Both the position numbers and the translations under genes were made by a program. DNA of 64,000 bases from contig CM020620.1 of NCBI GenBank assembly GCA_009829735.1, forward strand, positions 25,824,951 through 25,888,950. The letters are read 5' to 3'. Source of the stretch: Pyropia yezoensis. Taxonomy: Eukaryota > Rhodophyta > Bangiophyceae > Bangiales > Bangiaceae. Every line of letters begins with the position of its first letter. Positions within the stretch are counted from its first letter, which is position 1. Below, one piece after another: positions 25,730 through 50,893 of the stretch. Under the pieces are notes generated by a model. The model saw only the letters and a program-made list of their open reading frames with translations, was not told where the DNA came from and searched no databases.

Positions 25730-27233
25730 GCGCGGGGGGGGGGGGGCGCCCGTCGGGGACGGCGCGGGGGAGTGGCGCGCCGGCTGGCGCCGGGTACGCG
25801 GGGAGTGTGCTCCACCGGGTGATTCCGGGTACGTTGTGGGGAGGAGGGGGGGGGGGGGTGGGGGGACGGGGCGGGGGAAGAGGCGGCAGGGTCAAGCGAG
25901 CAGAAGGGAGTTGGACATGCGGGGTTTGTGGAAACGAAGTGGGAAGGGCGGGGTTGGAAGCGGGGGGGGGCAGGGGGTGGGCGGGTACGGCCCAACTGAC
26001 TCTTGGCGGTTGTTGTGTGTGGTGGCGACCACGGCCGGTGCTGTGCGCCAAGCCGCGTACGCGGCGTGCGCGGGGCGGGTGGCGGCGGCGCCTGACGGAT
26101 TGGCGGTCGCGTTGCGGGGGGGCACAGGCTTCATGTGCGTTGGCGGCCCGTCGAGGCCGGGCGACTTTCAGCAGCGAAGCGTTGGCGGTTGTTGAGGGAT
26201 GCGGAGGGGAGAGGTGGGGACTGCGGCTCGTGGACCGGCACCGCGGGGTGCGAGACCGCCGTGGCGGGGGTGGGGGGGGGGGAGTGGTTCGTCGCCGTGG
26301 GCACACGCCTGCGCCCTGCTGCGAGACGGCCTCTCTGTCGTCGCTGCGCAGGGCTCACGGCGGCAGACTGCGCAGACGCCATGAGGGGGACCCACCTGCC
26401 GCCCTCGTGTCTGACCGTTGCGCACGCATGTCCTGCTTGTTGGTAATGGCCGCCTCTTCCCATTGAATTGAATTGCGTTCCCTCTCCCCCTCGCCTTGTT
26501 CCCTCCCATTCTCTCCCCCACCCCGCCGGTGGTGCCCCCCCCCCCCCCCCTAGCACAGGGTTCAAGGAGGGGACTTTGAGAATGGCGACGGCACCGGCGG
26601 CCGCAGCGTCTACCGGCGGCGGCGGTTTGCAGACGAGGGGTTTGTGCTCAAGAACGACGCGGCGGGGGTGGTGGCGTGTGCCAACAGTGGACCCGACAGC
26701 AATACCAGCCAGTTCTACATCCTCCTTGGCCCCGCCGACTGGCTTGACGGTGCGCTGGGGGGGAAGCGGGGGGTGGAAGAGGGGAAAGGAAGGGACGGTC
26801 ACGTTGGTGGGGCGGCTGTCGGGTTGAACCGTGACGGGGACCCCGACCGGGGGAGAGGCGGCGGCACAGGAGACGGATGGGTCGTTTCTGGGGTGGTGCC
26901 TGGGTCCGGACATGGCTGTGGTGACCCATCCAGCGAGCTACATATGTAGGCAGGCGGTTCAATGCGGTTCTAACACCCCTCGACGGTTGCGTCCAGTGGC
27001 GCTTCTCCTTTGCCTTGTTGTCGTTGTCTGTGCTTGCACCCTACGCCCCTCCTCCCCCCCCTGTCGTGGCGGCTCCTCGCTCTTTTGCTGCTCTGTCCAC
27101 AGGCCTGCACGTGGTGTTTGGCCACGTGACGGACGGCATGGACGTTATCAAAGACCTGGAGCAGTACGGTACCGCCGACGAGGGCACCGTCACCCAGCGC
27201 ATTGAGATCACCGCCGCGGGGTGTGCCGACTGA
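25357..27233 (+). CDS. Cyclophilin-type peptidyl-prolyl isomerase (three exons)
   Basis: Exon 1 (25357 to about 25835) starts MGAIISSCTKDAPP and contains RVTIALRHDVAPVAAYNFRA and GSVLHRVIPG. Exon 2 (26559-26749) gives VQGGDFENGDGTGGRSVY, FVLKNDAAGVVACANSG and NTSQFYILLGPADWLDG. Exon 3 (27103-27233) gives LHVVFGHVTDGMDVIKDLEQ and the end. The catalytic Arg (HRVIPG), Gln (QGGDF), Phe (SQFYI), Trp (WLDG) and His (LHVVFG) are all present, so it should be an active isomerase. Intron 2 (26750-27102) is clear: GTGCGC to CCACAG. The intron 1 donor is ambiguous; GT at 25836 keeps frame and family spacing (about 266 residues), while the stronger GTACGT at 25829 breaks frame. The N-terminus fits myristoylation (Gly2, Ser6) with Cys8 for palmitoylation. 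A poly-Gly insert of about 35 residues precedes GSVLHRV. Confidence 0.85.
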
Positions 27234-30940: not shown

Positions 30941-32279
30941 GGCGTACGTACCCGGCCAGCACCAACGAACGCCACCCCGAGGTCCCTCGCCATCGCCCGA
31001 CTCGCACTCACTGATGCAACCACCCGCCGTCGCCCTCACTCGCCACTCGACCAATCGACCCGTATCACGTACCGCGCACCACACAGCAGCCGCACGTCGC
31101 AGCCGCCCGACACCTACCTGCCCCACTAACACACTGCGCCCCCTCCAGCTCCTCGGTGGCGCACAAGTGGAGGTAGGAAGCGCACAGATAGAGGTGCGAC
31201 CGGGTGGCCACTCGCTGTTATCCACAAAGGGACTCCACGCCACCGCAGCAAGTAGCGGCTGCCGCGGGGGAGAAGACGCCCGCGTTGACCAGTCATCCCC
31301 GCGCGATCCCAAGGGCACCCAAGACACACCATCGGCAGCTTGCGCCGCCCCACCGTGCAAAGGCGGACGACTCCCACACAGAGGGGCGGCGGGGACGCAG
31401 CCCGGAGGTAGAAGGGTCCAGGACGGTACGGAGAGGTGGCGGAATGGCCACCCGCTGCCGCCCTCGACGGCGTGACGATGCGCCGGGACCAGTGATGATG
31501 GCGGCAGCGAAGGAGAGGTCCACGCTGATAAGCCGTCGCCACCCATGGGTCCCCGTCGTCAGAAAATGCTGCCACTCGAACGGGAGCCCACTCGTTGACG
31601 CCGCGTTCAGCCGCCGTTCTCTCGGCGTTGAGTAACTGCTAGAGTGTTCGTTGAGCCCTGTTCACCTTATCAAGGCCCATCGGTACCGGCTCTCGTTGAG
31701 CGATGACAGGGGCCATGGGGGACCTGTCAACCATCACGGGCGCGCGGTTGAAATCTTTACCACGATCTAAGCAGTCCCTGGAGCACGTCCCACAGAGGTT
31801 GCACAGGCGACTTACGAGTACTGGAAAACATCCGTAAAGTACAACAGCAAGTATGTCCGTGTATTTAGTGACGTACAGCTGCCCTGACCAGTTCACGCGA
31901 TTATGAACTGTGTTCGTGTTGCGCTACATATTTCTATTTTCATATTCATACATGTATTACACAAATCAACATGCATATAGTACTAAACAATGTTTTTCAA
32001 TTCACAAAACGGAAGCGTCGTCCACCCGCCGACACCGCCACCGGTTTGCCGGCGCCGTCGCTAGCGGTAGCGGCTCTGCTACAGCACCTTGCCGTCGCCG
32101 CTACTCGCTACATCATGGCGGTTGGCGACAAGGCTGCCTCCCTTCGCCGCCCGTGGTGCTGAGCCAAGCGCACGTCGGCGTCGCCTCTGCCCCACCAGGA
32201 GGCGACGCGGCGGGAGGGCGGGGCCTTCATGCATAGCGCCTTGTCTCCGCAGCATCCCACGACCGTCGCCGCCGTCGTC

Positions 32280-32640
32280 GCGTCGTGCCGTTCCGATGCG
32301 TGGCGCTTCGCTGTCGAGGCTGCCCCTGGCAGTCGCAGCCATGGTGTTGGTCGACGCGGCAGCGGAAGGGGATGGCCTCAATGCGTGGCGCCTCGGCATT
32401 TCGGCTGCACCTGGCCATCGCCGCGGCTGTGTCGGTCGACGCTGCAGCAGACAACGGCGGCTTCAATGCGGCGAGCCGCGTCGCAGCAGCGGCCGGTCAT
32501 CGTGGATGCCGCAGTTGCCTCGTCCGCTGCGGAGGTGGCAGGGAGGCGGCTGCAATGCGCGTCGCCGCTTCAGACGGCGCAGATGCGGCAGGGGCCTGGG
32601 TCGAATGCGTGGCATGGCGTTGCAGCCGGCGCCTTTTGCC
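32280..32640. repeat. Degenerate tandem repeat, unit about 90 bp
   Basis: Blocks containing GTCGACGC(G/T)GCAGC, then a stretch ending CTTCAATGCG or CTCAATGCG, then GCCATCGCC or GGTCATCG recur about three to four times with heavy divergence. All frames are fairly open, which follows from the composition. The region up to 33,275 is similar but without clear units. Confidence 0.4.
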
Positions 32641-33275
32641 GTCGTCGCCATCCCTTTCGGCACGCCATAGCTGGGCAACCGCATCAGCGCTATGAAGTCC
32701 ATCGTGGCCCACCCACCGCCGGCGCCCGTACCACACGGAACGCTCGCCACCGAGTGTGGTGGTTTTGCCGCCCGCGTTGCCGAAGTGGTTGCAGGGCTGG
32801 CAATCCGAGCCATCTGTGCCTCGTACGTGGTGGAGCGTCGGCCGCCGACGGACAGCGCCGGCCGCACTGCCACCGTCGGCGTCCACGCGGGGGCCACGGC
32901 GTCGACTCACCGTAGGGCAGCAACATCTGCCCACCGTGCTGCCTGCTCGTGTTGAGCGTCAAGTGCAAGGCGTCACCGCCGAGGTATCCGCCCTCCACGG
33001 CGGTGCGCGCCACCGCGCGCCCCGCGTCGCGCCCATGCGTCGGCCACCCCACTCAGCTTCGCCGCCCGGGCCGCGAGCGTCGCGTCAGTGGTCGGAAAAC
33101 GTCTGCGTGGCGTGGTGGGGGTGGGAGAAGAACAGCGTATCCAGCGACGGGGCGCGTCTATCACCGGTGGCGCGTGGCGTGACAGCCCCTGCCAAATGGT
33201 GTCCGCGACGTGATGGGCGACGCGGCCCACACGACCCGGCTGGCCATGGATGCCACCGCGGCGGCCGCCACCGCC

Positions 33276-36200
33276 TCACAAAGCGTCGTGACCGCCTCCC
33301 GCATGCGGGTGCGGTAAGAAGCGGGCGAGGCAGCGGCAACGGTGGGGACGGCACGAAGCGTGTGAGGCAGCGGCAAAGGTGGCTCTCGCAGCGACGCTGC
33401 CCGCACGCGTCAAGCGGCTGGGGCTGTTGCATCGGCCGCTGCGGCAGCGGGAGGGGAGCGGCACCCATACGAGGCGCTGAGTCGCAGGGGCAGACGCTGG
33501 TTGTGGCAACTCGCGCGTTCTTCGGCGCCTCAGCCTCGGCCGTGTCCCGCTTCCTGGCCCATTGGCGTTGCGGCTGCTCCTGGTCGCCTGCGCGACAGTG
33601 GCACTTGGGCCGCTCCCACGCCGCTGCGGTCGCCATCGCTCGCATTGCCAGATTGTATGTGGAACATTGTCAAGCACGCCGTGAGCGCTTCGATGCGCGG
33701 GGCGCCGTCTCCGCCGCACTCTTGCAGCTGGCAAGCGTCCGCGAGCAGCAACACTCGGAGGCCGGCTGTGCGGCGCTCTTGCTGGATGCCTTCTCCTAGC
33801 AGGCCTCGAGGGAGTCGGCTCGTCGGACTCAATATCGCTGCTGGACACGTCACTGTCCATTGAGTCCGTCGCCAGTAAGCTGCGTTCACTGCCGCTGGAT
33901 GAACCGCCCGACGAACTCTTTGATGCGGCGCCGTCCGAGCGGCGGACATTTGAGCGACCCGTGGAGCTCCCGTCAAGGGAGTCGGCGGGTCGACGGTCCT
34001 CGTCGAGGAACGTCGAGTCGGAACCACTTGGCGGTATCTCCGGGACACTTCCCACGCCTCCAGCAGATGGCGCGGTAGTCGCACTTGGCCGCATGTAGCG
34101 GCCTCCTCCCTGGCCACCGGGTGACGGCACCTCCGTTGCCCGTCTGTCTGCTCCAGCGGCTGGCGCGGCAGAAGCCGCACTTGGTCGCATGTAGCGGCTA
34201 CCTCCCTGGTCACTGGGGGACGGCACCGCTGTTGACTGTCTGTCTGCTCCTGTCCCCGATTGAAAGGTAGGCGCCTCTTTCAACCGCATCTTTCGGTTGA
34301 TGACCCTGAGCGCGCGCTTGCTAAAGCCTTCGACAAACCGTGGCTGGCCAGCGTCGATGAGCAAAAGATTATTCTCCACCGCTGCATGGGAGTGGAGGAA
34401 CGTATGAGAACAGTAGAGCTGTGAAGCCCATTGCTTCCGGTGCCCTTCGTCAATATGATGGCTTCGGGTGATCACGGCCGGCAATCCTCCATCTTGACGC
34501 AGTTTGGTGCGGACCTGTCGACCAGGCCGGCGATTGCGCAGCAGTGAAGGTTCACAAGAGGGGCCAGCCGGGGCAGACATACGAGTCAATGTATGAAAAG
34601 CGCGCGTGAAGGGCAACCGCGCTCATCCGGCACGCGTACTGTGAGACAGGGCCCTCTCGAAACAGAAATCAGTAGGAAGTAGCCGGGCACCGCTTACCTT
34701 CAGAACCAACAGAGAGTATAGCAATGCCGTCACCTTGTAGAACTTCTCTCGGTTGCTTCCGGACGGAGGCACAAGGAAGTCGTCGAGACGGCCCCACTTG
34801 TCATACACGGCTTCCAAGGCGGCAAGCATTGACAGTCTGCCATTCACGGTATTGACAAAGCTGTCCTCCCACAGGCACTGCAGACAGGCGACAGGGAAGA
34901 GACGCACGGACATGTTGCCTTTGTTGTCGTAGACAATGGAACCCACCTCGCCCTCCTTGTGGAGCTCGTTGTACTGTGTGTAGAACGCCGCTGCCGCAAG
35001 CTCCTTCAACTCCGACATCCAATGTGGGATTGCGGCGCGTAGCTTCTTTCCCGGCCGCACGAGACTGGTGCCCGACTTGTGCGACTAGGAGTGGAAGCGG
35101 ACATTGGTATCGAGGAGAACCTTGGCCTCGTCGTGCGTCTTGCTCTGATGGCTCATCACAACCTCGATCATCAAGGAGCGTACGTCGCCTGCCCCGCGGT
35201 AGACACTTTTCGTGTCTGTACCGTACAAGGTATCCCGACGGTATCTGGACATAAACGCCTCCTGTGTTACATCAGTCATGAACACAATCCACAGCAAGAA
35301 GGCCAAGAGGAGCACCAGCTAGACGTCAGCCGTGTTCCAGGGTACTCGCTCAGGCACGGTAAGCTTCCACGGAACACAATGTCGACAAGGACACGGAGCA
35401 GTACACAGAATTGACACGAACCTTCAGCGACTTGAACCAGCGCATCGTTAGACGTGCCTGTGCCCTGACACTCCGGGGGCGTTCCACCGGATGGGGCGGC
35501 GCAACCGCGGCAGCGTCCACTGGTGGCTCGACATGTGACGGCCTCTCCGCCATGTGTCTGACGACATCAAGCACGTGAACGCCATTCTCCAGGCAGACAT
35601 TGACCGGGCCAGTGAGAGTGGCCAACATAGAGCGCACAGTGATCAGCTCCCCCTTGCACGCGATCCACTCCTTGGTAAGAGCCTTGAAGTCAGTCGAGAG
35701 GGCGTCCAGTTTCTCCTCTGCCGTCTTCACCTTCTTAGGATGTTTTCCCTTCCTGCCAACAGGATGCGGGGGCACTTGGCTCTCTGGCTTATCGGCCACG
35801 CCAACGGATGCATGATTGGCAGGCTTCTCAAGTGCCGCCACCTGCGAGAAGCCCGTAAGAGGCGCTGGCTGTCTGACAACAAAAGAGGGAGGCACCTGGC
35901 TGCCTTCCTGTTCCGGCTCATTCGGCGCGCTACAGCGTGTACGTAGAGCAGACTGCTTAAGAACCGTTGATCGCGAGGCGCCCCTACGAGGCACCGGATG
36001 AAGACGGCGGGGCGGCAGCTGTGCGCCATACAGAGATAGAGGGTGAGCTTCGCGCAACTCAGGGGCCGTCCAGGGCGGAAAACCAGCAGACGGCACTGGA
36101 GCAGCGCTTGCAGAACGAGGCGGACCAGCAGAGGCTTCTACGCGACCCTGAATCGGCACGTCATCGTCGAACAGTCCGTGCTTGTCCACATCTTGTCCAC

Positions 36201-36759
36201 CTCCGCTCGCGTCCATCTCAGCGCCCACGGCGACGTGTGGGGGTGGCGAAAGCAACAGTCCTTCTGCTGCATAGGGGGACATAGAACGAGCAGGCCAGGC
36301 GGGGTCACACCACGAACCGCTCTCAAGATGGCCATTGCCAGGAAGGTGCAGAGCGTCACGGGTGGCATCTGCAGGAGGCGTATTGGCTCCGCCCATCACA
36401 GGGGGAGCAGCAGCGGCTGTCGAACGATCGGCCGGCGGGGGAGCCGGCCGCCTTACGCGCGTGTTGCCTGGACGCCGTCGAGCGCGACTGCGTGCAGCCG
36501 CGGTGTCCCCCGGCGGCACTCCAGGCTGGTCATGCGGAGCGTCCGAAGGCTCATTTAGGAGCGTTTCGCATGGTTTCTCGGGCGGCGCAGTCCACTTTTG
36601 TGGACCAGGTGACCCATGCGCTACTCCACCAGTCCCTCGCACAGGCAGTCCAGCATCAAGCCGCCGATTTCCTTCGCCTCTCGCTGTCGGCGACAGACTG
36701 CGATTGGCGGGTGCGCCAGGTTGACCCATGCCCGACCGAAGGACTGTTCCACAGGACAA
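33276..36759 (-). CDS. Unknown four-exon protein, probably mobile-element or lineage-specific
   Basis: Four minus-strand exons join in phase 0: 36759-35422, 35261-35121, 35084-34698 and 34514-33276. Donors are AAG/GTTCGT, AAG/GTTCTC and AAG/GTAAGC; acceptors are AACACAG, TCCTAG and TCGACAG. The joined frame is 1,034 residues. Visible features are a Pro/Ala-rich N-terminus, a coiled coil (KTAEEKLDALSTDFKALTKE onward), a globular middle (FYTQYNELHKEGEVGSIVYD, ALEAVYDKWGRLDDFLVPPS, HIDEGHRKQWASQLYCSHTF), two 32-residue repeats, a Ser-rich acidic stretch and a basic tail. I recognise no family. Intron 2 would be only 36 bases; if it is not spliced, its in-frame TAG breaks the gene. The true end may be earlier than 33276, because the tail becomes compositional. 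Moderate GC and the nearby Plavaka-like transposase suggest it belongs to mobile DNA. Confidence 0.45.
34081..34257 (-). repeat. 96-bp tandem repeat inside the unknown gene
   Basis: Two adjacent copies, starting at 34081 and 34177 on the plus strand, encode 32-residue units that share the core RYMRPSA and a VPSP-x-x-QGG motif. The unit is a multiple of three and the frame is preserved in both copies, which supports real coding here. Confidence 0.65.
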
Positions 36760-38275
36760 GAGCAGCGGGGGAAGAACGCCAAAACGCCACCCCCTCGTCC
36801 TTCGTCACCTTTGCCGCCACCGCACCATCCACCGTCTCCACCGCCGCCGTTGTTCTCCCCCCAAAACGTCTGCTCCTCCTCTGCTGCCACCTCTGCCCCC
36901 GCGCGCTGCAGCTGCGGCCCGGAGGTCCTAAAGCATGGGCGGCCCTCTACCGCGTGTCGCTAGCGCCGGCCGCGGCTGCCCCGCTACCGTCGCTGCAGGC
37001 TACCTCTTCGACCGCCTGCCCGTTCAGTCAAACAAAACGCCCGCTACAGGTAGTTGCTGCCTCTTTTGGCCGCCGTCGGCTGCTACCTCCGGCCGGCCTT
37101 TACCGCCGGTGGCCGCCGTCGGCCGCTACAGCCGGCCACTACCGCTAATCGCTGCCGCTGGCCGCCAAGCGCGGCCCCACAGATCACTGCCGTCGCAACC
37201 TGTTGCTGCCGCCGGTCGCTTCTGCCGCTCGCTGCCGCGTGGATCTGTTGCGGCCCACTGCCGCCGCCCGCCGCAGACGATCGCCGCCCTGCCGTGGTGC
37301 GGCCGCCGCCGCCGATTGCTGCCCACCAGTGGGGCCACCGCCACTGCTTGTCACTGCCACTCAGCTGCCTCACAGCAGCCGGTGCTGCCAGGCGTGGCCC
37401 CACCGCTGCTGCCGCCTCCGACGCCGGTGTCTGCACAGCGTCTGCCGCCACTGGTACCGCTGGTAGGTGGCAAAGAGCTGTCGCCACTGCCGCGACCGTC
37501 TTCAATGTCGCCGCCGCCGCCGCTGCCGCACGTTTCAGCCACGAACGTGGTCTACGCCACAGTCCGGACGAGGTCGCTTTGCAAAGGCGTACCCAGAGTA
37601 CCCACTTACGCTGGTGACGCTCCGTGCCCGTCGGCTGGCACAAGACGCTTCGCTTTGCGCCATCACCAGAAGAGGCGACCGGGTCGTAGGGCTCGCGGGT
37701 TCTACCGCAGTCGGGAGGCCCTCTCCAAGAATCCACAGCACCTCTGCGTTTGCCGACACTCTGCGGAGTTCCAGCTCGAGCTGTCGATGTCAGCAGCTGA
37801 CAGAACAAGTATGGGAGTACATACGGAGAGCGTCGGGATGAGTGCCGCCGCGGACTGCTGAATGTACGCAATTGAACAGGGGCTCCTGTTGCAGCCATGT
37901 TACAGGACGTCGAAGTCGTCCCCAGAAGGCTTCTGCCTCCTTATCAGAGTATTTTACATCACAACAAGGCATGAAACGTATGCTTGGAAGTCATATGAAG
38001 ATCGACTCCCCAAGCAAGATTCATCCCTCTGGGACTTTTTCTTTGACCGTGGTGCACTAGTGACTCTCGAAATCACCCACTTTGGTCGTGAAGCTCTTGC
38101 TGACAGTGCTCAGGGGAAAGCGACTGAGGCTTGGATTGATCCGCAACATCAGTCGAGACGAAGGTGCGCGATTCCCACCTCGGCGTTCCGTCCGTGTGTG
38201 TGTGTGTGTCCGTGGGTGCGGGGGCGGGAGCTCCACCCTCTCGCTGTCCGCTGCTGCTGATGGTGCTTACCTGCG
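36760..38275. other. Region upstream of the unknown gene, GC-rich and degenerate
   Basis: No recognised gene. From about 36,950 to 37,460 short GCCGCT/CCGGCC-rich blocks repeat loosely. From about 37,860 to 38,160 a plus-strand open stretch of lower GC (translation includes SSLWDFFFDRGALVTLEITH) reads like real protein sequence but has no start, family or clear splice partner. It may be an exon or a relic. Confidence 0.3.
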
Positions 38276-38551
38276 CCGCCGCCAGCGGGTCGCGGCGGCT
38301 CACGCTCTTCGTTTGCCGCCGGGGGTGCGCTGCCGCCCGCGGCTCCCGGCGGCGGCTCTTTTTTTACCACCGCCGCCGGCCGTGCGCTTCCGCCGCCGAC
38401 AGGTGGCGACGGCTCGGCCTCCACCACCGCCGCTGGAGGTGCGCTGCCGCCGCCGGTAGTCGGCGGTGGCTCGGGCTTCACTACCGCCTCCGGAGGGGCG
38501 CTACCCCCACCAGCCACCTGCGGAGGCTCCGGCTTCACCGCCGCCACCGGC
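38276..38551. repeat. About five copies of a 57-bp repeat
   Basis: On the minus strand the units translate to variants of AAVVKPEPPPTTGGGSAPP. Five copies differ mainly at third positions and in two to four residues. The length is a multiple of three and the frame is kept, so the repeat may once have been coding, although no complete gene could be built around it. Confidence 0.6.
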
Positions 38552-41500
38552 CGCGGTCTGCCACTCCAGGCCGGCGGCGGTGCAGCCTCTGGTGCGGGCG
38601 GGCGGGCGCTGCTTGTGACCCCCTCCCGCGCGCGGCCGGCCAACTCAGCACAGCTTTTTGGCTGCGCCTCCGCGCTAGGCGTCGGCGCCCAGGCCGCGCG
38701 GACGCCTGCTGCGGCGGCGGCTGCAGCGGCGGCCGCCGCCCGTGGACCGCCGCCCGCGATTGCCGCCCGAAGGCGGCGGCTGGCGGGGGCGGCGGCGGCC
38801 GCCCCCGCCAGGCAATGCGTCTGCGAAGGCGGCGGCGGCAGCGCCGACGAAGCTGCCGGCGCTGACGCGGCTGCTGCCGGTGGCGTTGCTGTCTGACGCC
38901 CAGGCGCTGCTGGCGGACTTGCGCTCCCGGACGGCTGGCGCGGTGCCCGTCGCCGCCGTGGGCGCGGCCGCCGGCGAAGGGAGCGCGTCGCCCGTGAGCT
39001 ACACCGCCGCGGTGCTGCGGGGGCTCGGACCGCCGCCGGGCCTCGCCCGTCCCTTCCAGGTGCCGCCGCCGCCGCAGCCAAAGATGCCTCCGACAGGGGA
39101 CCGTCTGTCACGCCCCCGCGGTATCTGCGGGGGTGCCCGCTGGCGGTCGAGCCGCTGCGGGGCGTGAGTGGCGGCGCGAATGGCCACTGGGCGTTCTGCG
39201 CGCCCCGCCGCGCCGGCCTGCCGCGGAACTCCCCCGCGGGGGGCCTCCATGGCGGCGCCGCCGCTACATTTACAGCCTCCAACCGCCGCCGCACCCCGCC
39301 GACTGGCGCTGCTGGTGCTGGGCGGGCCCGCCGCGTGTGTCGCCTACACCTTCATGCCATCCCGGTGGTACATGCCCGCCAAAGCTGCCGCTTGGGGGCG
39401 AGGGGGAGCGCCGCAGCTGCCGCTGCCGCCGCCGCCGCCGCCGGTGGGGGGGGGGGCCATTACCCGCGCGGTGCTGGTCACCCACTTTTGTACCTAATTG
39501 GGGGCTCGTGGCGGCGTGGCGGCTGCGGCGGCGATGGCCAAGGGGGGGGGAGGGGGGGTCGACGCTGCCGCCTTTTTGTAGGTCTTTGCGCGCGCGTTTC
39601 GTGGCCCCGATCCTGCGGCGGCCGCCGCCGCTTTGGCCGGCGACGGCGGCGGCGCTGCGGCGGGCGGCGGTTGCAACAGTAGCCAAGGGGGCAGTGGGGG
39701 TGACGGAGGCCGTGGAGGTGGGCCGCAGCCCTCCGTTCCGCACATCCTCATCCTTGCGGGCCGCCCGGACACCACCGTCACAACAACCACCACCCCCTAC
39801 TACGCTGCCGCAGCTCCCGCTGCCACCCCAACCGCAATCATCGCGGCCGGTGCCGCCCCCGCTGCCAAACCCGCCTCCACCGCCACGGCAGCCGCCGCCG
39901 CACTGCCGCCGCCACAGCTGCTGCTGCAGCGGCTGCCGCACCTGGCTGCCGCACCCAGTGCTGCCGCCGCGTCAGCCGTCATGCAGCTCCTCCGCGGCGC
40001 GTGGGCGGCGAGCCTTGGCGTTCACGGTGCCCCGCCTTTCTCGCTTGGCCTAGGCGCCTGTCATTTGGCGCGTTCGCGCCGGCGCTGTCAACGTCCTGCC
40101 TGTGAGCTTGGCAGTTGGGACTTGCCCGCATCTGTCTGCGGCGTCTGTGTGCAAAGCTGCGAGGAACGCGGCTGCTGCCCCTGGTCGCGCCGTATGGAGC
40201 TTCAAAGAGCCATGCGCATCCTGTGATGGCAGTCATGCTGCGTTCCGATGCTGGCAGAGGTAACGGGGGCACTAGCCGCGGGGTTCTGCGCTTTGTATGT
40301 GTACTTTGCTAGACGAGGCTTCTTGATTTCTCTTTTACATACCCTGAGCAGCTGGCAGGAGAGACCGCCAGGTCCCAACACCAAACGGCAGGCAGTCAAC
40401 AGAAGCCAGGCTCCGCAGCGCCGCGCAGGTGACGAAAAGGGGAGGACAAGCGGCGCGTGGCTCGTGCGAGGAGCGGCAGGTTCAGTCGACGGTGGGGGGG
40501 AGAAAAGTGCGGACGTGGGCCCACGATGCGGCCGCCGCGGCGGCCGCCCCGTCACCATCGCCGCCGTCGTCGCCAGTGGCGGCTGCCAGGTGCGCCGTGC
40601 CGCCGCCGCGGCCACCGCTGCAGACAGGGTCAGATGGGGCACGCCCCCCGGGCCCCCCCCCATCAACGCGGCGTAGCCCAGCGTACGCTCTCACCGCAAA
40701 GTGTCTCGCCGCCGAGCGCACGCGGTGGCGGTGGCGGCAGCAGCGGCCTCAGCAGCGGTGGGGGCACCTCTGTCAACGTCACCGTCCCCGTCACTGTCAC
40801 CCTACGCCGCCGTCGCCGGCCGCCACGAAGACCGTCACCGCCGACGCGGTGGCCAAGTCAAGGCTCGCCCACACCCAGTCGCGGTCGGCGACGGCCGCAT
40901 CTCCCGCTGCCGACAGCTCTGCGGGGATAGGCGCGGCGGCGGACGACGCCGTCGACGCCGTCTCGACGGGCGGCACCGCCGCCAGCGCAGCGGCGTACGG
41001 CTCGAGGCACAGCCACGCCTCGGCCACCGCATCGGCGGTACCGGCGGAGCGGCGGCGGCGGTGGCGGCGGCGGTGACGGCGGTGGCGGCGGTGGCGGCGG
41101 TGGAGGCGGTGGCGTGGCTGCAGCCCCCCTTGGGGCAAAGGCGGTGCCCAGCGGCGCCCCCGCGATCACAACCGTCCCCACCGCGGCGCGGTCGGCAATC
41201 GCGGCGAGCATCGACGGCGACCACTCCCGCCCGGACGCCTCTGCCGCTGCGCGCTTCTCTCCCGCCGCCACCGTCGTCGCCGCCGTCGCCGTCGCCGCGT
41301 CGGCGTCCCCGCCGCCGCCGCCGTCGTCGTCCGTGTCGTCATCGTCAGTGTCACTGTCGCTGGGATGCCGGCAAGCAAGAGAAGGTTGCTGCACAGCGGT
41401 CGTTTGGGCAGCAGCCTGGATGACCCCAGACGTGCCAAGCAGACGCGAAGGCGTGACTCCGGGACAGGACACCTTTGGAAGGCGCAAAACTACACAGTTT

Positions 41501-42647
41501 GAAAACATACAATGTGGGACGGGGGGGGCTGTCTCCTTCCAGTTGTTCATGGGCTATTTGAAACCGGTTGCCATGACGTGCCTGGCGTGACCTGAGCCAG
41601 AGCCACGTGTGAGAATCGACCGACATTGCCGGAACGTGACATCTTCATGACCTGCTGACTCCTGGGAGAGCCAATGGAAAGCCGCAAACCACGCTAATAG
41701 AGGTCAATGTACTATTTCGAAGACCTTGTTCGCGGAGAACTGCAAGATACTCAAACTCTAGACCGTCTTCGATTTCCATGCCCGTTTACGAGATAAATTT
41801 TCAGCGCAATGGGAATGTATTCCGATGTGCGTCCAGAGTGACTTAGAAAAGGCTTCATATAGGCTCAGGAAGTGCCGCAAGATTTTGATCGTGATCCTCA
41901 CGCTGGAATTCGAGCGTCAGTCGATGCCTCTGCTCGACGCGTTCATTCGGCCACCCATTGGACGTGTCGACCAGCACCTCTGACGCTGGTGAATTGCTGG
42001 CGGTGGCTGTTCTCAGTGACCAGCAACGAAAGCGGCGGTGGCAGCGGATCGGCACGGGGACCTGTTTACGGCGCCATCAGCCAGACTCGGATACACTGGG
42101 TGCCGACGCTGGCGTATGTTCTGGAGCAGCGGATGCTCCGATCGTGGCGCCCTACCATCGGCAATGCTGGCCACATCCACGACTGCGGCGAAGGCTTCGA
42201 TCGCGGAAGCCTCGGGTGGGCGCGGCTGGCCCCGTTGCTAACTGGCTGGGCGGCAGCGATTGTGGCGACATACCGGGGGCACGGCAGGCCGCATCGACGG
42301 CTGCGGAAGCGGCTGCAATCGCGGCGATCTGCTGACGGCACGGCTGGCGGCGTCGAATGCTGCGGCGGCAGCGGCTGCCCAACACGGTCAGGGCGGCGGC
42401 AGACCGACACAGCCACGTCCTCACCCCCCACAGCGGCGACGGCGCACCCCGCCAAGACTATCGTACGCCTCAGTCGGGTTCACCGCGTGCCTGGTCACTA
42501 CGGTCGGAAGAACGACCACGTCACCTCCCCGTATCTTCTTGCAGTATCGAGCTACTCGAGGGGAGCTTCGGCGGCCGCGGTGCTGGCGGCGGCGGCTAAG
42601 GTAGAAGCGGCTACCGTAGCGGTAGCGACCCCGTGGTGGTAGCGGGG
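38552..42647. other. Long degenerate GC-rich region without an assignable gene
   Basis: About 4.1 kb. Several frames look protein-like in patches: plus strand near 39,280-39,490 (LVLGGPAACVAYTF), plus near 39,740-40,060, and minus near 41,500-40,800 (acidic DTDDDDTDDD, then EWSPSMLAAIADRAAV, then WLCLEPYAAALAAVPP in another frame). None gives a complete gene or a family, and strands conflict. An AT-richer stretch lies at 41,600-41,880. This may be decayed mobile-element DNA. Confidence 0.3.
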
Positions 42648-42905
42648 GCGGATCTGGCGGTGGCTGAACGGAGGGGCCGGCAGCCGCGGGGCGGAGGTCA
42701 CGGTGGTGGGCCACGGCGGCAGTAGTACCGGCGGCGGATCTGACGGCGGCCTAGAGGAGTGGCCGGAAGCCGCGGGGCTGAGCACACGGTGGTGGGCGAC
42801 GGCGGCAGGGCTGGCGGCAGCGGACCTGGCGGTGGCTGAGAGGAGGGGCCGGCTGCCGCGGGGCGGAGGTCCCGGTGGTGGGCGACGGCGGCAGTGGTGG
42901 CGGCG
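42648..42905. repeat. Tandem repeat, unit about 85 bp, three copies
   Basis: Three imperfect copies each contain GGCGG(A/C), then GGGGCCGGC or a variant, GCCGCGGGGC, and GGTGGTGGGC(C/G)ACGGCGGCAG. The remaining 500 bases up to 43,403 are similar in composition and have no recognised gene. Confidence 0.55.
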
Positions 42906-43403
42906 GTGGACAGGGCGTGCGGCCGGCTGCGATAGTGACGCGGCGTCGAGGGTGCCGCGGCAGCCCGACGCGGCTTCGGCGGCTGCAAAACGACACAGCC
43001 GAGCTCCTCCCGCCGCAGTGCGCCGCAGCCTGGGCCACGGCTGGTGGGGTTGCCGGGCTGGAGGCCCAACCTATGTACCGTTAGCGTTCCTGTGTGCACT
43101 GCCGGGCTCCTTGGTGGGCGCCTTGGCTACGGGGTGGTGGCGGGAGCGGCCGCAGTGGGGGCGGCAGCGGTCGTGGCGACGGCAGTGGTCGCAACGGCAG
43201 TGGTAGGGGCGAGAGCCGTCGAGGCGCCAGCGGCTCTGGATGAGGCGGCGGCCGTGGTGGCGGCGACGTGTTGGCGGCGGCCGTCGTGGAAGAAGCGAGG
43301 ACGGCGAGGCACGGGTGCAACTCAAGGGCTGCGCTGCGACGCCTGGCATCTGGGAACCTGGCTCGTGTACGTGTTCTCGTGCCGCTGGCCATGCTGATGT
43401 GAG

Positions 43404-46400
43404 ATGAGAGGTTCTGGACGGACGGCTGGGAGAGATGGGCGCTACCTATGCTCTTCATGCCCTCGGACGTTTCTCACAACGGGCAATCTTTCCTGGCATC
43501 GTCGCCACCACCATCCCCTCGGCAATGTGCGTTGCACAATCCCGTCGCGTCACACTCGTCCTCACGATACCGGCGGTGCTGCACCATCCCGTGTTCCTCT
43601 TGCGGTGCCGTCGACACCAGAGCGTGTACGGGCCCTCGTCCATGCTGCTGCTGTTGTGGAGGACCCCGAGGGCCACGCGGCGGGCTGGCATGCGTGGGAT
43701 GATGAGTCCACGCTCGTTGTCCCCGTCAATATGTGGCGACCAGACTTGCGGCGTTCTGGTTGGTCGCACGCTGCAGATATTGAGGCGGTAGGCGCAGTCT
43801 CACCGGCGCTCTCTGACTCCCGGCATCTCTTGCGGCAGACAGCGGTCATGGGGGCCTGGATGCGGCGATCAGTCTTCGCTACGCCCATCTCAAGGCGGAT
43901 CAATGAGTACTACAGAGCAATCGGCGACATCGGCCGCACGACGCCCCTGGTGCCGCCCGGCAGCGCAATACGGCCATCTGAATTCGTGACGCAGGGCTTG
44001 AGAAAGATGCGACGAATCGCTCTCGGAAGTGGTGGCAGCGGGCTGGCCGAGAGTGCAAGGAAGGAGCTATGGGACGCTACCGTATCCCTTGAGCGTGAGG
44101 GCCTCGTGGGCACTGGAAAGGTCGGGCCAATGGAGTCCGCCTTTCCCACGCCGGACGCCTTCGTGAAGTCGCTCCAGGACGAGTCGCACAGAGTCTTGTC
44201 TGTCCTGGGATGGCGCATCACCACGATGCACATCCGCAGCAAGATGCGACACTTCTACTCTCGTAACTTGCTCTCAGTTATGCAAGCGGCTCTGGAGGGA
44301 GCGTCTGAGGTGCAGCTGGGTAGCGCTCGACGACGGCGGGCGAGCGGCACTCGGATCCGTACAGGGTCGCTGGACAGCGACCTGTACATCAAAGCAGAGA
44401 GCGAAGTGCTACGGATTCACGGTCACAAGGGACGGGTTATGACCGTCGCTGTCCAGTTGTTCTCGGACGTGGCGCTTGTGTCATGGTCGAAGTGTAAGTG
44501 CCGTTGCGCTCCTGAGAGATATGCTGATCATAGGACGATTGAACGGTGCACACGACATGGGTCCGCATGGGATAGCATACTCACCTCTTTTATCCCGGTA
44601 TCGCTGTGTGAGCTTGTCGCTTTCCTGTGCACTCTGTGCAGATCATCACGTATATCCAGTGCGCGTCCGATTCCCCAACATTTTGAGTGGGAAGAGTGGG
44701 TGGCTGACCGTCGGGTACATCCCGTGCTTACCGCATAGGAATGCCTCGACCAAGGCTGACAGGGTGAAGATGCGGACGGTGCGCGACCGGCTGCTCCAGC
44801 GCTGCCTCGCCGTTTTGCTTAATGACCTCGTCTCCGCGAGTGAGACGGGAGCTCACTGCGACTTGGCCGAGCACGGGAGGGTGCTCACAGTGCCCCGCAT
44901 TGTCCTCTACGCGTCCGACCAGCCGGAGGAGCGGCATGTGCTCGGGCTCCAAGGCAACCGCTGTGCGTACCCGTGCTCAGCGTGCATGACAACGCCGGAC
45001 AAGATGGGCTCTCGGCGGTCGCAGTGCGCCCCTCGGTGCCCCCTCACAAACCTCGAGCTACAGATGGAAGGAACGCTACTGGTAGACAGCGGTGGGGGAC
45101 GACAGAGGCTGGCACACATCACGCAGCAGACAAGCGCCCTCCCATTCCTTCCTGTGTTAGGGGCCATGCATGGTCTGGGCACAGGCCAGATGGCGCTCTA
45201 CCAAGTGTTTGGCTTCGACCTTCTGCACGTAAGTATTCTTTTTTCTCCTTGCGGAGGCAGGCCTCTGTGGCCAGGTGCGTGTCTTCACCACGCGCATCTT
45301 TGTCACCACTTTGCAGCGACTGTCAGCGGGAGCGCTCGAGAGGGGCATCCAAAGACCGGGGAACATGGAGGCAGCCGAGCCGCCACTGATGCTAACAGGC
45401 GGCGTGTTGAGTCACGTGGGCCGTTTCTTCTTGTCTTTATTTCGTTTGGACCTTCCCAGGTGATGAAGCTTGGTGTTTTGCGTCTCCTAGGTTGGAAGAT
45501 ACCGGCACTGCTGATGCTCTTGTGTGGGAAAGGCAAAGCTTTCCGGGGCTCCGTGACGGACACGATCAAGGTCATGAATGACCGGTTAAACTACCTCGGT
45601 CGTCTATGCTTGGCATCTAAAGCACCACCAGGGTACGTTGCGGCAACATCTCCCTCCTACAGCTCACAGAGAATCGAAGGAGTGTTGGACCTGCGTTGAC
45701 ATAACGCATGACGGACGGTGGTGACCGAGTCAGTGCCGCTGTGGTACTCTCACCGCCCGCTCGGCGATCTCACTTGCACAGTCACACGTTCACAGGTGAC
45801 AGTCCTGCCGACTGGATTCTGCTCCGGCATGCTCACTGTTCAAGAGGCGAGTGTTCTGACGACGAAGCACGTGACACCGCCTCGTCCCGTTACCTTACTT
45901 CCCCTGTGCGTATTCTGGCTGTGTTGTTTTCTGTTTTTTTGGGCGTGCAGGTGCCTTGTGCCAAAAGGCACCTCGCAGATTACCATGAAGGGCAGACAGT
46001 GGCGCCACGCAGTGGTGTACTGGCCATTCCTCGTGGCAGGGCTGGTGGATGCGTCTGCGGGAGCTGCGACGCTTCCCACCGCGGAGCAATGGGTCAGACA
46101 TGAGCGGAAGAACAACAAGCGCAACAGGGACAAGGAGGGCAGTGACGGAGGCGGCTCTGATTATGGTGCGGCTCCAGGCGGCGGATGCGCTTCAGACGGG
46201 GATGAGATGGCATCAGCTGACGCTGCCGAGGACACCTCCATTCAAGAGGAGGACCTCGACGCCTTGTTCGACAACGAGGAGGATGGCGACGATGACGAGG
46301 TCGTGCCGATAGACCAACGCACGTACAAGGACCTGTTCGATGATATGCCAGTAAGGGACGCCGTGCAAGAGGTTGTTTGCCGTGCGGCGCTACTCATGGG

Positions 46401-47799
46401 TAAACTCTGCGGTGACAACCAGGCGGATGACGCCGACATGAGTGAGGTCGAAGCGCGCGAGCTTGCGCGCGAGGCCTACGAGTTTGTCACGAAGTTCATG
46501 GTCGCTCTGTTTGGACCGATGCACACTTCCAAGGCGCACCGGCTGGCGTACCATCTCTTTGACGAGCTTATCTTGCGAGGGAACCTTGTGGACGCTGACA
46601 CGTCTGTGAACGAGTTGCTGCATAAGCTGGTCAAGATCATGTACCGTCGTACAAACAAGCAGGATCAGGCGTTCACCTTGCAGCTCATGCGTGCGGAGCA
46701 GACGCTGGCATTTGCCGTTGATGAGGATGCCGACCGGGAGGTACTGCGGAAGGCGGGACTGCTGGGAGCAGATGGCGTCTTGCTCGATCCCTCGCGGAAC
46801 GGCCAAGCGGAGTTGGAGCGTGCTGCCATGGATGGCCATGTGAAATCCGCGGCACGGCGTCTCCGAAAAGCGTGTGGGGCGAGCGATGCTGAGAAAGCCG
46901 ACGACGAAGGCGCCTTAAACGCGCATGGGCAGCAGGCCGGCGGCAGACGTCCAGCCAGGCGGGGCGCGGCTCGCCGAGCTCGCACTGCCGCGACAGCGGC
47001 CCGACTGTATCGTGCCACGATACCGTCACCTGCGCTGATGCGTGCCAGCCCTGAAGACGGCAATGTGCCTGACCTACCTGCCAGGGATCGAGCTCACTCT
47101 GCTCGGTTGTCGGACAGAGGCATTCGCGGAGACGCAGCGAGACGTGGCGCCGAGATGGCCAGCTCCGCACTAGCTGGGACCCGAGTGCGTGGTGTGAACG
47201 TCACCGTGGCGGACGTCATTGCCGAGGGGGGCCCTCACCTCGACTCTTTGAGATCACTCCTGCAGCTGCGCCGCTCGACGAAGCTGATGGTGACAAACCA
47301 GTTCCCATTCATGGCAAAGTTCGAGTGGGGCTCTAAAGGCAGGAAGCAGCACGTGCTCGCCGCAACCATGTACTACAACGGCGCGTGGTACGACCATGTC
47401 TTGTACAGCGTCTCCGGCTCCAAAAAGGTGCACCATGTGCACGCTGTTCTACTGGTGAAGGCCATTGATGGATCTCAGTGCGACCTCGTCATTGTTCAGA
47501 AGCTGGTGCCAGCTGAAGAGCGCGAGGGATATGTCCTTTCTGGGTTGGAGTCCCAGCGCCTGCGATGGTCCATGGACCGGCGCGCTTCGCACCCTCGTTT
47601 GGAGGCCGTGCACATAGATGACCTGCTCCGGCTCGTTCATGTCGTGCCTGACTTCGAGGACTTGTGTGACCGCCATGGTATGCTCATGGCTCCCACGGAC
47701 ACGCCGAAGACACGGAGGGAACGCGTTTTGGAGAGGTTCTTTGTGAACCGCTTTTATCCCTGGACCAGCAATGGTTTGGGTGTAGAGAATAAAGCATGA
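43404..47799 (+). CDS. Plavaka/CACTA-like DDE transposase with C2H2 finger (four exons)
   Basis: Four exons join in frame: 43404-44493, 44642-45228, 45460-45632 and 45951-47799, about 1,232 residues. Donors are GTAAGT, GTAAGT and GTACGT; acceptors are GTGCAG, TCCCAG and GTGCAG. The N-terminus is a perfect C2H2 finger (Cys16, Cys19, His32, His35/36: YLCSSCPRTFLTTGNLSWHR). The core resembles Plavaka-type transposases of the CMC group: VQLFSDVALVSWSK with Asp355 then HHVYPVRVRF, VGYIPCLPHR, RIVLYASDQPEERHVLGLQG with Asp456 then CAYPCSACM, FDLLHVMKLGVLRLLGWK, and FGPMHTSKAHRLAYHLFDEL followed by SVNELLHKLVKIMYRRTNKQ with Glu838. It should cut and paste a DNA element. Terminal repeats were not found by eye. 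The third intron could hide a further exon. The open, well-spliced frame suggests a recent or active copy. Confidence 0.75.
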
Positions 47800-48589
47800 T
47801 CGTCCCTTGTACTACTAGCTAGCTCAGCACACAGGAGCAACGACAACTGCCTTCTGGCTGTCGTAAATGTTGCCCGTCGTCGGTGCGCGGTTGATGTACA
47901 ACGCGCGCAGCGTCGCGGATGCCGCCCGGCTGAGGATCACCCCAGCCGTCGCCGCCGCTGCCGCTGCCGCCCGGGGCTTGACGCGAAGCGGTTCCTAGAC
48001 GCCGCTCCTTTGAGCGGAGCCGCCGCACCTGCTACAGCCTCCTCCGCCATTACGGGCTGCCGGGCGCCCCTACAGGCTGGTGCCCGCCACAGCCGCACGC
48101 CGATGGCGGTGCGGTTGTCGGGTGCGACCCGTGGTCGCCGGTTTTGCTGCCGAGACGGCAGTTGCCGTCGCCGTCACCCCCGCCGCCGTCATTTCTTTCC
48201 TCATCGACTCCGCAGCAGCAACCAGGGGCAGGTGAGGACCGCCCACGGCTGCCGCCGCCGTGGCTGCCGCCGTAAAATCCAGTTCCCCTCCACCGCCACA
48301 GAAGGCCGCGCCAGCACGCCCCCCCCCTGTCCCACGTCCACCACCACTGTCCAGTCAACCCTTCATCCCCGCCCCCACCACATCCTCGCCGTTACTGGCG
48401 GCGGTGCAGCGTGTGGCCCCCTCTTCTCCGTCACCGGACGCTGTCGGACGCGCCAGCGGAGGCACCGCGCCCACACGGGCAGGCACCCGCGTGGCCGGCG
48501 AAGCGATGGCCGGGCACAGCCCATCTGCTGTCGTCTCGGGTCTGCCGCAGTTCAGGTTGGCAGAGCAGCCGGCGGGTAAAGCCGAGAAG
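47800..48589. other. Region downstream of the transposase
   Basis: About 790 bases with no supported gene; the expected right terminus of the Plavaka-like element should be in or just beyond this interval. AATAAAGCATG directly follows the stop region and might serve for polyadenylation. Confidence 0.3.
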
Positions 48590-49330
48590 CAGCAGCGGTG
48601 AAGAGGGAGGCACCCCCCTCACAAGCATTGAGCCCCACTCCATGGCGGGCGGCCGCCAGCCGTGGCAGCGCCGTCCAAGTTCCAGAGCAGGCTTGGCAGG
48701 CTTGGAGAGCCTGCACGGCGGGACGGACGGCGGCCAGGTCCTGCCCGCCCGCCATAATCACCGACATGTTCACATGCGTCCCACTTTGGAGCGCGGCAGC
48801 GGGATGGGGGGCATCGACGGTGGGCACCACGTGTGTGTCGCGATGTTGAAGAGCTCTGGTACGGCCTCGCCCCGACCCGAAAATGTACAAAGAACATTTG
48901 CGTTGACCATCAGCCTCGAGCATGCCCCCACGCCAGCCACGACTGCTACCGCCTAAAGTTCGGCGGCTGTCGGGCAACATGGCGCCATCACTGCCGCTGC
49001 TGCAAGAGTTGTACAGCCGGACGCCGGCGTCGGCCGCATGGGCCGCGCGCCATGGACGCGCCCGTGTCCGAGGCAGTGTCGAGGCGTGCTGCGGCCACGA
49101 CCAGGGTCGTGGTCGTGCGCTCCACCCGCACGACCAACGGCAAGGTTGGCGGGTCGCACGCCCAGGGGGTAGCCGGTTGACCAGCTGCTCTTCGCGGCCA
49201 AGTTTTCTCCTGAGGCTTTCAACGCCGCACACCGTGTCGAGTCCGGGCAGGGTCACAGCGTAGACCAGCTGCGCTGCTGCCACACCCCGCCCCCGCCCTG
49301 CACCAAGAGTCCGCCCGACCCCTGTCCGCT
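48590..49330 (-). pseudogene. Decayed Kelch-repeat gene
   Basis: On the minus strand, blocks spaced about 48-55 codons apart look like Kelch blades but lie in different frames. In order they are LVYAVTLPGLDTVCGVESL (about 49,270), VRLYNSCSSGSDGAMLPD (about 49,000), NVLCTFSGRGEAVPELFNIA and THTWCPPSMPP (about 48,900-48,810), and MAGGQDLAAVRPAVQAL with TWTALPRLAAARHGVGLNAC (about 48,750-48,640). The patterns G-G-x(n)-V-E/Q-x-L/Y and TW-x-x-LP-x-LP-x-x-R are the Kelch signature. Frameshifts and stops between blocks indicate a pseudogene. Whether it was ever part of the nearby mobile DNA is unknown. Confidence 0.5.
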
Positions 49331-50893
49331 CGTGGCCTCCGCTGGCCGAGGCGTGCCGCGTCACACGCTGCAAAAGGCTAACGAGTGACATGTCACCCGT
49401 AAGCCCTTGCGCACGGCGGGGCTGCGCGGATCTCCCAGATCGTCCTGTCCGCTCGCCAAACTTCAACGCTCCGTTACACTCCGACTTTCAGCACAAGTAG
49501 ACCTCGTTAGCTGTACTAGAGAGGCCATTAAGGCCCGAATATGCTCGAGTAGGCGGCTATTCCCTCTAAGCGACCGATTTTTATCGCATTGGCTCGTCTT
49601 CTATCACATCGTTCTTGCTTCATGATCTGCTTTAAGCCGAAATGGTGCCCACCAGCCCTTCTTTGATGTTTGACTCGGGTTCTTAAGGAAGCGATCCACC
49701 GCGTATGTCAAATCTCCATGTTGATGACTTCGTATGTGCCACTTGGTTGTCCACACAGGCGATCGACGATCATTCAACTCCATCCTTCATGGTACTTCTA
49801 GCAGTAGTCCAAAGAGCGCGCGGACTCCGCTTGCAATTGCAGGGCAGCTGGGCGTCCCCGTCGCCACCCCGGTTGGTGAAATAATCAACCAAGCCTGTCT
49901 GGCCATCGCGGCGTGACCCGAGCACAGGGCCGACCAGGCTCTGTGCGCATGCCTGTGGCCCAAGAGGGTAGAACGGGAGCGGTCTCGATGACCCTCGTAC
50001 AGTCAGCGCTAGGCGAACGCTCGCTCATCGGTGGGCCCGCCGTTCACGGGTTCGCTAGCGCTCCAGCCGCTCGGCCTCCGTTCAGTGACTGCTCGGGTGG
50101 CAACGTTTTCTGACGGTGACCGACAGGGCGACTGCTGCCGCAGCCCCGCTGCCCCAGAGGTAAACGCGGTCCACGCCAACTGAGGGGCAGCGTGAAGGGC
50201 ACCAGGCACCACCCACGATAGGGCGCCGCGGCGCCCCACGCGAGGCACCTCAACGAGCGGTGACAGCGCGTGCGCCGCAAGCGTCGCAGGGGAGGCCACA
50301 GCCGCGGTGCCGCCAAGAGCACTCTCCCGTCTCGACGCGCCCTACCGCACAATAATGGTCGCGAATGGGATTGTCAGCAGACGCAGCAGACGAGCCCTAC
50401 CTAAAATGTAGGTCGGCAGCTGTGGTCGTGAAGTTGCAGGCGGTCTCAAGCATCTGAATGGTGGGCTACTTGCGATGATACCGTGCTTGCAGAGTATTTC
50501 TGGCAGGCGCAGGGGCGACCTCGTGCCTAGAAATGTAGCCAAGACCGTCGTGGCGATCAACTATTTGGACGCTGTGCGGTCGCCTGTCGGGCGGCCGACG
50601 GGTGCTGCAAGCCGCAGCCTGCTGCCACCCGGCCCGTGCGCCCCCCTTTGACAACAGCAGGCACACGCGCACCGCCGCGTCGACCATGCCACCGTTCGGT
50701 TCCGCAGGGGGCGTGACCTTGTAATACATACTGTACAGTACATGCCCCTTCCCCGCCCCCTCCCCCCCGCCCCCTCGCCCCCCACCATTTCCGAATCCCT
50801 CCTTATCCCCTCCCCCTCCCCCTTCCTGCGTCCCTTCCCTTCCCCCCACCCCCCCCTTTCGCCCACGTCGCTCCTCGTAAGAACGTTGGTGCG
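49331..50893. other. Intergenic region upstream of the BSD gene
   Basis: About 1.56 kb with no recognised gene. GC is lower at 49,490-49,900. The final 200 bases contain the palindromic ACTGTACAGT with the GTACAGTAC element at 50733-50741 and a long C/T-rich leader to the ATG at 50894. Confidence 0.4.
50733..50741. promoter_or_regulatory. GTACAGTAC element, copy 7
   Basis: Nine-base element about 155 bases upstream of the BSD-gene ATG, embedded in ATACTGTACAGTACAT. This is the copy placed most like a core promoter or transcription-start element. Confidence 0.45.

Follow-up and report, generated by a model that had tools for sequence, protein, structure and literature searches.

The window analysed here is a stretch of 64,000 nucleotides from the red alga Pyropia yezoensis, a cultivated seaweed (contig CM020620.1 of assembly GCA_009829735.1, positions 25,824,951 to 25,888,950 of the forward strand). 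Very probably it contains a complete DNA transposon of the Plavaka lineage, 18,559 bp long (31557-50115), with a four-exon transposase gene, terminal inverted repeats (TIRs) and, on the opposite strand, a second gene that looks decayed. Positions written with C1, C2 or C3 are genomic ones; all others refer to the window. The assembly (107.5 Mb in 11 contigs) has at least 114 matches to the Pfam family PF18759 (Plavaka transposase) and at least 48 to PF02992 (Transposase_21). Twelve phycobilisome-linker matches occur on three large contigs, while among 14 control genomes only a cyanobacterium matched; they support the view of the first-pass annotation, made from the letters of the window, that the DNA is red-alga-like.

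The transposase gene and its family

The gene model of the transposase consists of the following segments.

43404 to 44493, + strand: transposase exon 1, with a weak C2H2 finger and D355 (exon joining and paralogue alignment)
44494 to 44641, + strand: intron 1, GTAAGT..CAG, with GT..AG in identical alignment columns of the C2 and C3 copies
44642 to 45228, + strand: transposase exon 2, with D456 and C475xxC478 (exon joining, paralogue alignment and 30-copy alignment)
45229 to 45459, + strand: intron 2, GTAAGT..CAG, with GT..AG kept in C3; in C2 the acceptor is kept and the donor region absent
45460 to 45632, + strand: transposase exon 3 (exon joining and paralogue alignment)
45633 to 45950, + strand: intron 3, GTACGT..CAG, with GT..AG kept in C2 and C3
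45951 to 47799, + strand: transposase exon 4, with H813xxxxH818, E838 and the stop (exon joining, paralogue and 30-copy alignments)

The first-pass annotation had joined four exons without a stop into about 1,232 residues, and this is borne out: the joined frame (43404-47799) counts 3,699 nt and 1,232 residues, with a single terminal stop and no internal one. The model was checked by alignment of the window with two paralogous copies, C2:13408592-13412555 and C3:11653067-11657211. At the exon borders, GT or AG is found in six of six cases in C3 and in five of six in C2, where the sixth (donor 2) falls in a stretch absent from the copy. Both relatives lack most of exon 2 (of its 587 bases, 80 align in C2 and 158 in C3). 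Because the splice borders recur in these relatives, the joined four-exon frame is judged to be more than chance. Exon 4 has 113 matches within its own genome. Shortly upstream of the transposase, at 42636-42917, a unit of about 86 bp is repeated in tandem in degenerate, GC-rich form; upstream of the C2 copy, too, there are short GC-rich matches to the window.

A profile search of the joined protein, proposed in the first-pass annotation, yields in Pfam the Plavaka transposase PF18759 above its gathering cut-off of 26.3 bits (score 37.3 bits, E 2.4e-9); the match covers residues 344-503 and profile positions 108-267 of 325. Six Pfam families are listed at E ≤ 5; neither Transposase_21 (PF02992) nor any KDZ-type family is among them (Pfam presumably holds a KDZ model). 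The matches to a WDR3 propeller, Exo_endo_phos_3 and two further zinc fingers are all below their cut-offs. With the first 850 residues, a sequence search of the PDB returns six matches at E 0.05-0.56, five to zinc-finger chains and one to a chain called mS26.

The residues D355, D456 and E838, the CSSC..H finger, and the CAYPCSACM and NELLHK motifs are all found where they had been placed from the letters alone. The CxxC...HxxxH residues of the proposed C2H2 finger are present, but the profile support is weak (zf-C2H2_6 at E 0.015, below the cut-off). Conservation was assessed in 30 genomic copies, obtained by collapsing 41 loci by hand, with near-identical copies at different places counted separately. 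The 790 columns have a mean identity of 0.39, and 73 of them reach 0.9 or more; against this background the proposed triad stands out as conserved: among the copies covering each residue, D355 is kept in 19 of 20, D456 in 25 of 25 and E838 in 28 of 29. The putative zinc ligands behave similarly, with C475 and C478 each in 24/25 and H813 and H818 each in 27/29. H559 is kept in 24/27. Plavaka, a named lineage of the CMCT clade, is characterised by a catalytic D, D and E, the second D and the E enclosing CxxC and H(3-4)H (PMC12730594). The transposase of the window has this layout.

Selection on the transposase was estimated with a hand-written pairwise Nei–Gojobori count, in which the synonymous differences are near saturation (pS 0.54-0.58). 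The ratio of nonsynonymous to synonymous divergence (dN/dS) is 0.22-0.26 against C2 and 0.14-0.23 against C3, the range reflecting the inclusion or removal of poorly aligned blocks; in this alignment, C2 has 4 in-frame stops and C3 has 7. Changes private to one copy were counted over 811 codons retained of the 1,021 present in the window, C2 and C3 copies. The window copy has 103 synonymous and 32 nonsynonymous private changes and no stops, where all possible single changes give a nonsynonymous-to-synonymous ratio of 2.9. The decayed C3 copy has 73 and 26 such changes with 2 stops, and C2 has 56 and 39 with no stops.

Element ends and shorter copies

The limits of the element follow from termini that it has in common with other copies of the genome.

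31557 to 50115, + strand: whole Plavaka-type element, 18,559 bp, defined by shared 5′ and 3′ termini
31555 to 31556, no strand: left target site duplication GT, in the context ..CCCCGT then CGTCAGAAAA
50116 to 50117, no strand: right target site duplication GT, in the context ..TTTTCTGACG then GTGACC
31557 to 31581, + strand: 5′ TIR CGTCAGAAAATGCTGCCACTCGAAC, identical to the 3′ repeat at 21 of 25 positions
50091 to 50115, − strand: 3′ TIR (shared 3′ terminus of the copies and 25-base scan)
31557 to 31918, + strand: 5′ subterminal region common to other copies (DNA comparison of copies)
49116 to 50115, + strand: 3′ subterminal region common to other copies (DNA comparison of copies)

The imperfect TIRs start with CGTCAGAAAA at 31557 and at 50115. 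In 60 order-2 Markov simulations of 20.0-43.4 kb, the best match reached 18/25 and the mean was 16.3, against the 21/25 observed. A scan of the window with the 25-base end at up to 8 mismatches gives 31557 (4 mismatches), 50091 (0) and a chance-level site at 26073 (8). The range of 36-50 kb in which the first-pass annotation had suggested looking for TIRs is too short, the 5′ end at 31557 being outside it. A TIR search of 36.0-43.4 kb against 47.8-51.0 kb had GC-rich simple-sequence matches among its best 25. A first guess of CACTA-like ends, CACCGTCAG..CTGACGGTG, taken from two copies, was dropped: in 12 copies, unrelated flanks come directly after CTGACG or its variants. The 13-base form of that end has 19 window matches at up to 3 mismatches, with 9.6 expected.

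Comparison with C2 and C3 first revealed the conserved stretch at 49.7-50.1 kb, which occurs in 12 genomic copies including the window. Eleven of them end in ..ACG (..CGTTTTCTGACG in the window, at 50115), with unrelated flanks beyond; in the copy L055, the 3′ terminus differs in its last bases. The 5′ region occurs in eight genomic copies, again including the window, all of which begin with CGTCAG. The dinucleotide just outside the end is GT or AC in 7/8 of the 5′ flanks and 9/12 of the 3′ flanks. A 3′ end can be paired with four of the eight 5′ ends at a distance of up to 20 kb; all four pairs have matching flanking dinucleotides, i.e., a 2-bp target duplication, where Plavaka has 2-3 bp.

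31557-50115, + strand: window element, flanks GT/GT
C1:13580589-13582138: paired copy L061-L054, flanks GT/GT
C3:21423414-21441284: paired copy L062-L053, flanks AC/AC
C3:9427758-9431938: paired copy L064-L051, flanks GT/GT

The description of the copy as intact thus holds for the transposase frame and for both ends, and is kept to these.

Over about 365 bp, the 5′ subterminal region has 78% identity with L061 and with the C3:21423414 copy; with L070 it has 70% over 489 bp. The 3′ subterminal region is 68% identical to L070 across the whole kilobase; with L061 and the C3:21423414 copy the similarity is in two blocks, one of about 198 bp (69-70%) and one of 332-384 bp (76-78%). A second gene had been considered at 49.6-50.1 kb, a block better explained as the 3′ subterminal region because shorter copies carry it. 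The copies of 1.55 kb and 4.2 kb have only the end regions in common with the window element at the DNA level; they look like non-autonomous derivatives, which the transposase of the window would move. Downstream of this transposase and of its three closest relatives, the 3′ terminus is present in the same orientation, at a distance of about 2.3 kb in the window, 2.5 kb in C2 (13.41 Mb), 2.7 kb in C2:28.14 Mb and 6.2 kb in C3 (11.65 Mb).

How the locus is read

In the best explanation, to which we give a probability of about 0.87, the locus is an old and complete red-algal element of the Plavaka lineage (CMCT clade), a DNA transposon of the cut-and-paste type. Directly established are the frame after splicing, the match to the family, the conservation of the triad, the ends common to several copies, the duplications of 2 bp, and shorter copies in which the ends are kept. 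The assignment to Plavaka/CACTA-like DDE enzymes in the first-pass annotation agrees with PF18759, the conserved motifs, the terminal repeats and the 2-bp target duplications. Enzymatic activity and zinc binding of the transposase are predicted. By analogy with the Plavaka family (what is read here is anatomy), the spliced gene would give a DDE transposase that binds the CGTCAGAAAA ends and the subterminal regions. The active site D355/D456/E838, braced by the CxxC/HxxxxH zinc site, would cut the element out; the element would then be joined to a GT/AC target cut with a 2-bp stagger, and repair would leave the duplicated dinucleotide.

Several points weigh against this explanation. The spliced transposase is a prediction from the DNA. 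The four matching dinucleotide pairs carry modest weight (about 0.014 under independence), because GT and AC are so common at the ends of the family, and for the other four of the eight 5′ ends no 3′ end is listed within 20 kb. Good agreement between the TIRs is confined to about 25 bp (21/25), with little beyond. The 12-base form of the end has eight window sites altogether at up to 2 mismatches, six of them near-matches at other places, one with a single mismatch (55491). In the C2 and C3 relatives, the 3-4 kb read upstream did not reveal a 5′ end. No near-identical copy is present in the genome, the two nearest DNA matches being at 74%. The ratio of private changes does not set the window copy apart from the decayed C3 copy. 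Given the counts for C3 and C2, it reflects a general descent through working transposases; what sets the window copy apart is its freedom from stops and deletions.

A small share of probability goes to an alternative, namely that the termini at 31557 and 50115 belong to two separate insertions, the element of the transposase being shorter, with its 5′ end lost or unrecognised. Upstream of the transposase, there are only short GC-rich repeat matches with C2 and C3 in the 3-4 kb read, and the matching GT could be chance given the GT/AC preference. Still, GT is present on both flanks, every other window site differs from the end at 8 or more of 25 positions, and the copy at C3:21423414-21441284 (17,871 bp, AC/AC flanks) likewise has ends that are far apart, with an unrelated interior.

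Slightly less probable is domestication, in which the host would have retained a gene of Plavaka transposase origin that is no longer mobile. Such a gene would appear as one intact copy under purifying selection whose closest relatives have in-frame stops and lack most of exon 2, as is the case here. The passage of transposases from copy to copy gives the same signal, however, and the ratio of the decayed C3 copy is similar; moreover, the ends, the 2-bp duplication and the triad are all retained. A canonical EnSpm/CACTA element is improbable: it would belong to the same clade with the same CxxC/HxxxxH layout, in a genome with its 48 or more Transposase_21 matches, yet Pfam gives Plavaka and no Transposase_21 for this protein, and the termini are CGTCA..TGACG with 2-bp duplications instead of the CAC..GTG with 3 bp of EnSpm/CACTA.

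Inner gene, related copies and known Plavaka systems

Within the transposon, the other protein-coding feature is the following.

33680 to 36333, − strand: apparently decayed protein-coding gene, with a single paralogue elsewhere; its frame may reach about 36.8 kb

Its DNA is collinear, with gaps, with C3:17307904-17310460, and a further 58-bp block matches at 38093-38150. The only other genome matches of its protein are 69% identity to C3:17308755-17309189 and 48% identity to C3:17309522-17310640. It consists of two stretches in the same frame divided by a stop. The window gene looks decayed, because the stop splits a frame that the paralogue keeps open (for 458 codons there); an intron may lie at this stop instead. 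Pfam gives no family above cut-off for it. The inner gene is probably captured host sequence, copied, as we infer, from the host into the element. A location of the paralogue inside a sister element is unsupported: the 15 kb around it (C3:17303001-17318000) have no convincing Plavaka end, with one site within 7/25 mismatches and no 11-base site at up to 1 mismatch. The inner stretches 36850-38250 and 41300-42560 have only short matches elsewhere in the genome. For the transposase and three inner open reading frames (ORFs), Pfam lists no TET/JBP, the search for TET/JBP being confined to these proteins.

The 17,871-bp copy at C3:21423414-21441284 (L068/L069) has long ORFs in an interior unrelated to the window element. 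One matches a helicase weakly, below the cut-off (Herpes_Helicase, E 1.4e-4); another, 1,309 codons long, may be a KDZ-type transposase. At C2, a 5′ terminus (13344514) and a 3′ terminus (13415054) point the same way at a distance of 70.5 kb, each with a flanking GT, and enclose the C2 transposase; C2:13344514-13415054 is possibly one giant element.

Other Plavaka-related families are represented by the transposase pairs L010/L011 (seen again as L038/L039) and L029/L030, each with its two members on different chromosomes; the identity of 99.9% over 3.8 kb suggests recent transposition or duplication. The termini of these near-identical families are not fixed: in the closest pairs the identity spans the whole compared sequence, and the breaks in other pairs are unclear. 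A further repeat, 98.9% identical between L012 1-273 and L017 3290-3562, adjoins a Plavaka-related copy in each.

Among the closest described systems is PlavakaB of Agaricomycotina (PMC12730594). The likenesses are the Plavaka domain, termini of the form C-R-TCA..TGA-Y-G, duplications of 2 bp here and of 2 or 3 bp in PlavakaB, and CxxC and H(3-4)H between the second D and the last E. It differs in its termini, CATCA..TGATG, which are one base off the CGTCA (all eight 5′ ends) and TGACG (window 3′ end) found here; the red-algal host and the GT/AC target preference are further differences. PlavakaA (PMC12730594) has the transposase domain and 2-bp duplications in common with the window element, but TGT..ACA termini in place of CGTCAG..CTGACG. 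The EnSpm-Plavaka of Auxenochlorella (PMC12636532), compared by description only, is likewise a Plavaka in an alga, of the green lineage. In Amoebidium (PMC11244446), a Plavaka transposase also occurs with very long gene-carrying repeats; there, gene clusters and many tyrosine recombinases are found, where the window element has one apparently decayed gene of no known family. Plant Pack-CACTA and transduplicating elements similarly have terminal repeats around sequence found elsewhere in the genome; the element here has, in addition, its own transposase.

The group, which the first-pass annotation took to be best described in fungi, is indeed reported in fungi, but also in the green alga (PMC12636532) and in Amoebidium (PMC11244446). 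With Plavaka already named (PMC12730594) and so reported, the suggestion that the CMC superfamily has an undescribed lineage here is not borne out by the evidence; the element is a well-preserved new member of Plavaka, not a new superfamily. We found no report of a red-algal Plavaka in a limited literature search, made without Repbase and most subscription papers. PMC12071319 deals with insertions of transposable elements in zinc-finger genes and does not name Plavaka in the part consulted. Tentatively, red algae might host a Plavaka lineage of their own, a proposal we consider rather doubtful, with CGTCA..TGACG ends, a GT/AC target and large elements that acquire genes of the host as well as other transposons; their sizes would be 18.6 kb here, 17.9 kb at C3:21.42 Mb and perhaps 70.5 kb at C2:13.34-13.42 Mb.

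The locus provides a delimited Plavaka element far from fungi, in which the spliced transposase, the two ends and the target duplications can be read, together with shorter derivatives that have kept these ends. With it, the age and spread of Plavaka, whether by old eukaryotic inheritance or by horizontal transfer, become testable.

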